DNA of 64,000 nt. It comes from a virus. The DNA lies in IMG/VR virus record IMGVR_UViG_3300044977_000123, positions 59,223 through 123,222 of that record; one strand, given 5' to 3'. A model generated the notes under the pieces. The model was not told the origin of the DNA and ran no database searches. It was given only the letters and a program-made list of their open reading frames with translations. Shown here piece after piece: positions 63 to 203 of the stretch (its first letter is position 1; every line of letters starts with the position of its first letter). Both the position numbers and the translations under genes were made by a program.

Positions 63-203
63 GGGGTGCCCGGTGCGACAGCAACGGGTTCATCAATGGG
101 TCGCGGGTTCGAGTCCCGCCCGGTCGGCGCAAGCTGGCCGGTAGCTCAGGCGGTAGAGCAGTTGACTACAACTCCCGTCGCTGACCTTGATCTCGGGCAC
201 CCC
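63..203 (+). ncRNA. Y RNA (YrlA-like, tRNA-mimicking), partner of the Ro60 gene downstream
   Basis: The ends pair perfectly: GGGGTGCCCG (63-72) with CGGGCACCCC (194-203). An internal loop with GTGCGA (73-78) opposite CTTGATCT (186-193) resembles the Ro60 site of Y RNAs, whose strands carry CGA and UUGA. Then CAGC/GCTG (79-82 with 180-183) and ACGGG/CCCGT (84-88 with 174-178). Inside is a permuted tRNA: T arm GCGGG-TTCGAGT-CCCGC (103-119), a 9-bp acceptor-like stem (120-128 with 133-141) capped by a GCAA tetraloop, TA, a D arm GCTC-AGGCGGTA-GAGC (144-159), and a short arm GTTG-ACTA-CAAC (161-172). A normal tRNA cannot be folded because the order is T arm, acceptor, D arm. Y RNAs with a tRNA-like domain are known beside Ro60 genes in bacteria and phages, and in Deinococcus a Y RNA tethers Ro60 to polynucleotide phosphorylase. 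The exact ends are inferred from the outer helix. Confidence 0.78.

Follow-up and report, generated by a model that had tools for sequence, protein, structure and literature searches.

A phage Y RNA of the YrlA type, encoded beside a Ro gene, carries a circularly permuted tRNA body

We analyze an element at positions 63-203 of a 64,000-nucleotide stretch of viral DNA (hereafter, the window; positions 59223-123222 of the 123,222-base IMG/VR virus record IMGVR_UViG_3300044977_000123), where it lies at the extreme left end. It is very probable that this element is a phage YrlA-type Y RNA and the partner of the Ro protein that the phage encodes directly downstream, that it joins a Ro-site helix to a permuted tRNA body with a split anticodon stem, and that, uncharged and modified by TruB/Dus-type enzymes, it most likely acts as a tether and/or gate. 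The RNA is of the YrlA type, and its layout is not new: it is the one by which YrlA RNAs are defined. The host is likely actinobacterial, because the best matches come from phages of Streptomyces, Gordonia and Arthrobacter. Neither ARAGORN nor the Rfam tRNA model finds an ordinary tRNA gene in the whole 123-kb record, which may be incomplete, and the window Y RNA is therefore not a member of a tRNA cluster.

YrlA RNAs consist of a large stem formed from both ends of the molecule and a tRNA-like domain that resembles the D, T and acceptor arms, and the YrlA of Salmonella is a substrate of DusA and TruB (PMC8394870). Its structure is cited as PDB 6CU1 in PMC8394870. Phages that carry YrlA have been mentioned earlier (PMC7765460), as have Ro/TROVE proteins in jumbo phages (PMC7824862). 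Salmonella YrlA (RF02553; Chen 2014 and Wang 2018, as cited in PMC8394870) shares with the window RNA a permuted body set on a Ro-binding stem, an adjoining Ro gene and the absence of a CCA. The window RNA differs from it in being phage-borne, in having a 9-bp acceptor with a GCAA loop, in scoring below the Rfam cut-off, and in being one of three Y RNAs of differing architecture within one array. The original YrlA work reportedly placed Y RNAs close to Ro in over 250 species of bacteria and phages. The features of the locus are collected in Table 1.

Table 1. Features of the Y RNA and Ro locus at the left end of the window, in window coordinates
Feature	Positions	Strand	Details	Basis
Mini Y RNA B, most of it	1-52	+	Starts 18 nt before the window; Ro helix, Ro site, UACUUC motif	Sequence, homologues
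Outer closing helix, 5' strand	63-71	+	GGGGUGCCC; pairs with 195-203	Sequence; base-pair probability 0.98-1.0
Putative Ro site, 5' strand	72-78	+	GGU(G)CGA, G75 bulged; proposed partner UUGAUC 187-192	Sequence, motif conservation
Inner Ro helix, 5' strand	79-88	+	CAGC-A-ACGGG; pairs with 174-183, one 1x1 mismatch	Fold; same layout in sister copy
Probable anticodon stem, 39-43	93-97	+	UCAAU; pairs across the domain with GUUGA 161-165	Comparative
Variable loop, 44-48	98-102	+	GGGUC; G46 and C48 are tertiary positions	Comparative
T arm	103-119	+	GCGGG 103-107 / CCCGC 115-119; loop UUCGAGU 108-114 (U54 U55 C56 G57 A58)	Sequence; T stem covariation
Acceptor-like stem, no CCA	120-141	+	CCGGUCGGC 120-128 / GCUGGCCGG 133-141; GCAA loop 129-132	Sequence
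Spacer UA	142-143	+	U8 A9	Sequence
D arm	144-159	+	GCUC 144-147 / GAGC 156-159; loop AGGCGGUA; A14, G15, G18, G19, U20, A21	Sequence
Position 26 and probable anticodon stem, 27-31	160-165	+	A160, then GUUGA; alternative hairpin 160-173 preferred by energy, not conserved	Comparative
Ro helix, 3' strand	174-203	+	CCCGU-C-GCUG 174-183; UUGAUC Ro site 187-192; outer GGGCACCCC 195-203	Sequence, fold, motif
Terminator-like hairpin	215-240	+	CCCCUC-CACGU-GAGGGG and U tract, between Y RNA and Ro start; L002 1845-1861	
Phage Ro protein	240-1940	+	TROVE and vWA with DTSGSM; TTG start; first protein gene of the window	PF05731, E 2.7e-14

The original prediction, made from the letters alone, had read this RNA as a circularly permuted tRNA with a canonical T loop, a GNRA-capped acceptor stem, a UA spacer, a canonical D arm and no free CCA end. 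That reading stands: every helix named is found where it was placed within 103-159, the acceptor-like stem has 9 bp (2 of them G-U), and no CCA is encoded in the window RNA, the acceptor ends being fused by the GCAA tetraloop. A scan of both strands for a T arm, an adjacent acceptor hairpin and a D arm in that order returns this single place in the 64-kb window, and 0 matches in 200 Markov-random 64-kb sequences of matching dinucleotide make-up. The window RNA folds at -75.9 kcal/mol (z = -4.1). In tRNA numbering, U8 is at 142, A9 at 143, A14 at 148, G15 at 149, G18 at 152, G19 at 153, U20 at 154, A21 at 155, C48 at 102, U54 at 108, U55 at 109, C56 at 110 and A58 at 112. With these residues in place, the partners for the U8-A14, G15-C48, G18-U55 and G19-C56 contacts are all there, and the sequence suggests that the elbow contacts themselves may form. 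That enzymes modifying T and D arms could act on the RNA was part of the original prediction; for the YrlA of Salmonella, such modification is established (DusA and TruB; PMC8394870). The candidate target bases of TruB and Dus, U109 (position 55) and U154 (position 20), are present in the window RNA.

Because it has no free 3' end, the window RNA is not chargeable, and its sealed acceptor end should also keep it from being bound in the way that a charged tRNA is; the combination that marks a functional tRNA, a free 3' end with CCA and an anticodon loop, is not found in it. The tRNA-like domain of tmRNA is likewise a tRNA mimic, but charging and a CCA are found only on the tmRNA side of the comparison. 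The permuted tRNA genes of algae likewise have a permuted arm order, and their products are processed to normal tRNAs, a feature of their own. It is extremely improbable that the window element is itself a permuted tRNA gene, or the remnant of a tRNA pair, that is processed into a working tRNA. The arm order, 3' half and then 5' half, is indeed that of a tandem tRNA pair, but only a GCAA tetraloop stands where a CCA or intervening acceptor sequence would be expected, the window copy has no anticodon loop, ARAGORN and the Rfam tRNA model give no match, and the capped acceptor covaries as a closed hairpin.

For the comparison with relatives, we used 85 distinct permuted cores, nearly all viral. 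As the pattern scans of viral sequences and genomes gave mostly tandem ordinary tRNAs, matches were kept only if they had a closed acceptor hairpin and lacked a D arm immediately upstream, and a small number of doubtful ones were removed by hand. The GCUC-based pattern misses D arms of the GUGU...GCAC type, so the core counts are lower bounds; permuted Y RNAs with such D arms are seen at L310 6498-6620 and L009 2525-2660. G46 is found in 82 of the 85 permuted cores and C/U48 in 81, and of the 75 loci that have such a core, 57 also hold a Ro relative (within the stretch examined per locus). We distinguish class 1, defined by pairing at 29-31/39-41, with no loop and the stem formed between the ends (23 of 85: the window RNA and 22 others), from class 2, in which three Watson-Crick pairs close a loop of exactly 7 nt (44 of 85); the remaining 18 fit neither class cleanly.

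In the class 1 alignment of 23 cores, 97.5% of cells pair, versus 65.9% in shuffles, and the covariation score is 0.84 versus 0.18 shuffled and at most 0.20 in slid versions; the search pattern already contained the D arm and some of the T arm, so the fact that these do not vary in relatives does not count as independent evidence, and since class 1 was selected on 29-31/39-41, the pairs untouched by selection are just 27-28/42-43 and 49-51 of the T stem. Filtering required the acceptor to be a hairpin but did not specify its bases, and all 7 of its counted pairs covary in the 23 cores.

One helix is corrected by the comparison. The original prediction had placed a short arm after the D arm, and an energetically favored hairpin does exist at 160-173, but relatives support a stem split across the domain instead (93-97/161-165); the 3' arm probably does not stand alone and is one half of this split anticodon stem. 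Only the split stem gives back a variable loop of 5 nt that contains C48, together with a purine at 26. Positions 27-43 and 28-42 each pair in 78 of the 85 permuted cores, against shuffle means of 43 and 35, and in class 1 the five split-stem pairs hold in 95.7% of cells, with both sides changed at 4 of the 5 pairs. The closest relative of the same layout (L009, whose Ro is 62% identical) has UCAGA/UUUGA in place of GUUGA/UCAAU. An anticodon-stem equivalent made from the two ends, without an anticodon loop, as in the Rfam YrlA consensus, is thus found by comparison, and the energy model alone disagrees. In that nearest-neighbor model, a separate hairpin (AGUUG-ACUA-CAACU) after the D arm, leaving 89-102 single-stranded or as a mini hairpin, is the minimum free energy structure, 2.9 kcal/mol better than the split stem and with a pair probability of 0.93. 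We nevertheless regard it as unlikely to be the structure of the window RNA, as relatives instead keep the 27-28/42-43 pairing and show compensatory changes in class 1, L009 changes both strands of the split stem, and the model omits tertiary contacts and coaxial stacking, both of which favor the split stem. A mini hairpin at 89-100 (UUCA-UCAA-UGGG), considered as a shrunken anticodon arm, was rejected: it is absent from the minimum free energy structure and has weaker support in relatives than the split stem.

The anticodon side, which carries the split stem, had also been predicted to be fused to a Ro-type stem, and the fold agrees: the RNA is closed by a helix, 63-88/174-203, with a bulged Ro-type motif that recurs in relatives, and Ro binding is predicted. 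The motif, GGUGCG...UUGAYC, is common to all three Y RNAs of the phage and to relatives, and we take the GGU(G)CGA/UUGAUC of the window RNA to match the Ro site of eukaryotic Y RNAs. The energy model pairs the stretch 72-78 slightly differently from this proposed pairing. The phage Ro protein shows up to 47% identity to Streptomyces phage proteins annotated as Ro-like and matches solved TROVE proteins at E 2.9e-25. Its start lies 36 nt downstream of the Y RNA end, and the GAGGGG of the intervening terminator-like hairpin is likely the ribosome site for the TTG start as well, an overlap through which expression of Ro might be linked to termination of the Y RNA.

This overlap and the 36-nt spacing are what one would expect if the element were a cis-acting part of the Ro mRNA 5' leader, mediating autoregulation via Ro or a tRNA enzyme, and not a free RNA. 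We think this improbable: arrays of 2-4 tandem units, some after the Ro gene, fit separate RNAs better, and units follow the Ro gene in Atuin (L007 4957-5264) and gp54, annotated as an RNA-binding protein, in Snenia (L384). The cis-acting role could also coexist with the free-RNA role that we favor. Mycobacterium L-cluster phages were considered as a case of a Y RNA with no Ro, which was dropped; the neighboring gene there is Snenia gp54.

In the phage studied here, three tandem Y RNAs precede the Ro gene: copy A (record positions 59054-59187), copy B (59205-59274) and copy C, the window RNA. Copy A (L002 1461-1594), just upstream of the window, has a complete anticodon arm with the loop CUGUUAA and a UUCG-capped 7-bp acceptor, in the order CUACUU-CCA-CUGUUAA-UGG-GG-AUGUC-T arm-UUCG-capped acceptor-UA-D arm-G-CC. 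Its positions 29-31/39-41 form a local hairpin round a 7-nt loop of the tRNA-Asn anticodon-loop form, and its ends are joined only by 27-28 (CC) with 42-43 (GG). Neither a T arm nor a D arm is found in mini Y RNA B, and similar mini Y RNAs occur at L009 2433-2499, at L348 5528-5597 and near L271 2691-2765 (minus strand); read by eye, L009 has four tandem Y RNAs.

Two further observations concern these arrays. In most Y RNAs of phages and Micromonosporaceae, the anticodon arm comes after a GUUACUUC/GAUACUUC motif, for which Enterobacteriaceae have CUACAU; the motif sat in one search pattern and was also seen in matches from searches without it, and ACAGCAA replaces it in a small number of copies, the window RNA and that of Snenia among them. 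Separately, annotated tRNAs directly before Ro genes overlap permuted matches at L003 2769-2843 (GiJojo gp29, 'tRNA-Arg'), L005 2704-2775 (VanLee, 'tRNA-Arg') and L008 2745-2835 (Frankenweenie 148, 'tRNA-Pro'), and several of the 'tRNA' genes annotated next to Ro in phages are probably misannotated Y RNAs.

The assignment to YrlA, toward which the original prediction pointed, holds with the one helix corrected, as anatomy, Ro linkage and covariation agree. The window RNA has the permuted T arm, acceptor-like stem and D arm, a closed acceptor and an adjoining Ro60/Rsr orthologue, and its ends pair, by fold and in relatives, into the helix with the conserved bulged motif to which Ro is predicted to bind. 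Its score against Rfam RF02553 (YrlA) over all model positions, 48.8 bits, does not reach the gathering cut-off of 69, which is a curated detection threshold and not a structural feature. All 10 RF02553 matches in a 200-genome sample of Micromonosporaceae are below the cut-off too, and ordinary tandem tRNAs yield weak YrlA matches of ~30-41 bits. For these two reasons, the sub-cut-off score and the weak matching of tandem tRNAs, the Rfam score alone was rejected as proof, and the YrlA call rests instead on anatomy, Ro linkage and covariation.

The class 2 cores carry an anticodon arm. In the test that finds 44 of them with a 7-nt loop, other loop lengths (3-6 or 8-12 nt) were found in 0 or 1 cores, and re-dealt strands gave a three-pair 7-nt loop in a mean of 4 and a maximum of 11 cores. 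Loop features outside this selection are U33 (42/44), a purine at 37 (42/44) and A38 (40/44); A37 follows U36 in 31 of 31 cases and G37 follows G36 in 10 of 11, while A36 occurs in none. U36 is present in 31/44, versus 867/2297 (38%) of the ordinary tRNAs called in the surveyed loci. The loops are strongly biased to U36-A37-A38 (t6A-type) and G36-G37 (m1G37-type). An alignment of 34 of the 44 cores pairs in 98.2% of cells versus 68.7% shuffled, with a covariation score of 0.77 versus 0.18, and its pair 28-42 is AU in 10, CG in 10, GC in 10 and UA in 3. By this pairing and covariation, class 2 has the topology of a permuted tRNA whose anticodon stem takes up the Ro helix between 28 and 29. Class 2 sisters share with the window RNA the Ro helix, the order of T arm, acceptor and D arm, and the same arrays, but differ in that 29-31/39-41 form a hairpin with a 7-nt U33 loop and only 27-28/42-43 join the ends. 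Such copies would be nearly complete tRNA look-alikes. Laboratory phages that have the same arrays include Streptomyces phages GiJojo and BRock, Gordonia phage VanLee, whose class 2 copy has the loop CUUCUAA, and Microbacterium phage FuzzBuster, with a CUGUUAA loop next to its Ro gene.

The two classes stand side by side in those arrays of Enterobacteriaceae that reach the Rfam cut-off and in arrays of Micromonosporaceae. Where two or more copies within 2.5 kb could be classified, both classes are present in 18 of 21 arrays (phage, Enterobacteriaceae and Micromonosporaceae), made up of 13 arrays of class 1+2 and 5 of class 1+1+2, with 3 of class 2+2; these counts are approximate, because the classifier sees only copies with standard T and D arms. 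It may be, although we stop short of calling it probable, that phage and bacterial Ro/Y RNA arrays hold a YrlA subclass that is a whole circularly permuted tRNA with an authentic anticodon arm (7-nt loop, U33, U36-A37 or G36-G37) and the Ro helix between 28 and 29, usually beside a loop-less YrlA, and that Ro RNPs would be able, through this loop, to draw in or inhibit anticodon-loop readers (anticodon nucleases, t6A37 or m1G37 enzymes) as loop-less copies cannot. We found no description of an anticodon-armed YrlA in the literature examined, which did not extend to the primary YrlA papers, and the novelty of the subclass is provisional.

Ro-Y RNA-PNPase tethering is established in Deinococcus. 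The Y RNA of Deinococcus radiodurans, in the RYPER complex, resembles the window RNA as we propose it to act, with a Ro helix and an effector domain that tethers Ro to a partner; the effector domain of the window RNA differs in being a full tRNA-like body. Beside the observed anatomy, covariation, Ro linkage and tandem array, we infer the following function in this phage. The end helix, with its bulged 72-78/187-192 site, would bind the outside of the phage Ro ring, as the motif suggests, and the split anticodon stem would run continuous with the Ro helix and place the permuted tRNA body at the far end. There, the body would most likely tether to Ro an effector that recognizes tRNA (PNPase or some other enzyme that binds tRNA) and/or gate the Ro ring, and TruB/Dus-type enzymes may modify its T and D loops. 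Class 2 copies could also offer their anticodon loop to anticodon-loop enzymes.

The tRNA body might instead be mainly a decoy for anticodon-directed nucleases or tRNA-targeting defense. The authentic anticodon loops of class 2 sisters and the many phage copies fit such a role, and the YrlA tRNA-like domain has been suggested as a competitive inhibitor of an anticodon nuclease in Salmonella (PMC7790460). There is little chance, in our estimate, that this is the main role, given that an anticodon loop is missing from the window copy, the nuclease did not cut the YrlA of Salmonella (PMC7790460), the virus record (which may be incomplete) yielded no RtcB RNA ligase, and the same two classes are also present in bacteria.

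The window RNA by itself bears out that the known tRNA mimic YrlA is carried by phages along with its Ro partner. The loop-bearing sisters sharpen, as a hypothesis, the idea of anticodon-nuclease inhibition (PMC7790460). In the wider comparison, Ro/Y RNA arrays usually combine a tRNA mimic that lacks the loop with a copy that keeps a normal-looking anticodon arm, and this pairing makes testable both which effector the tRNA-like domain binds and whether Y RNAs act on anticodon nucleases.
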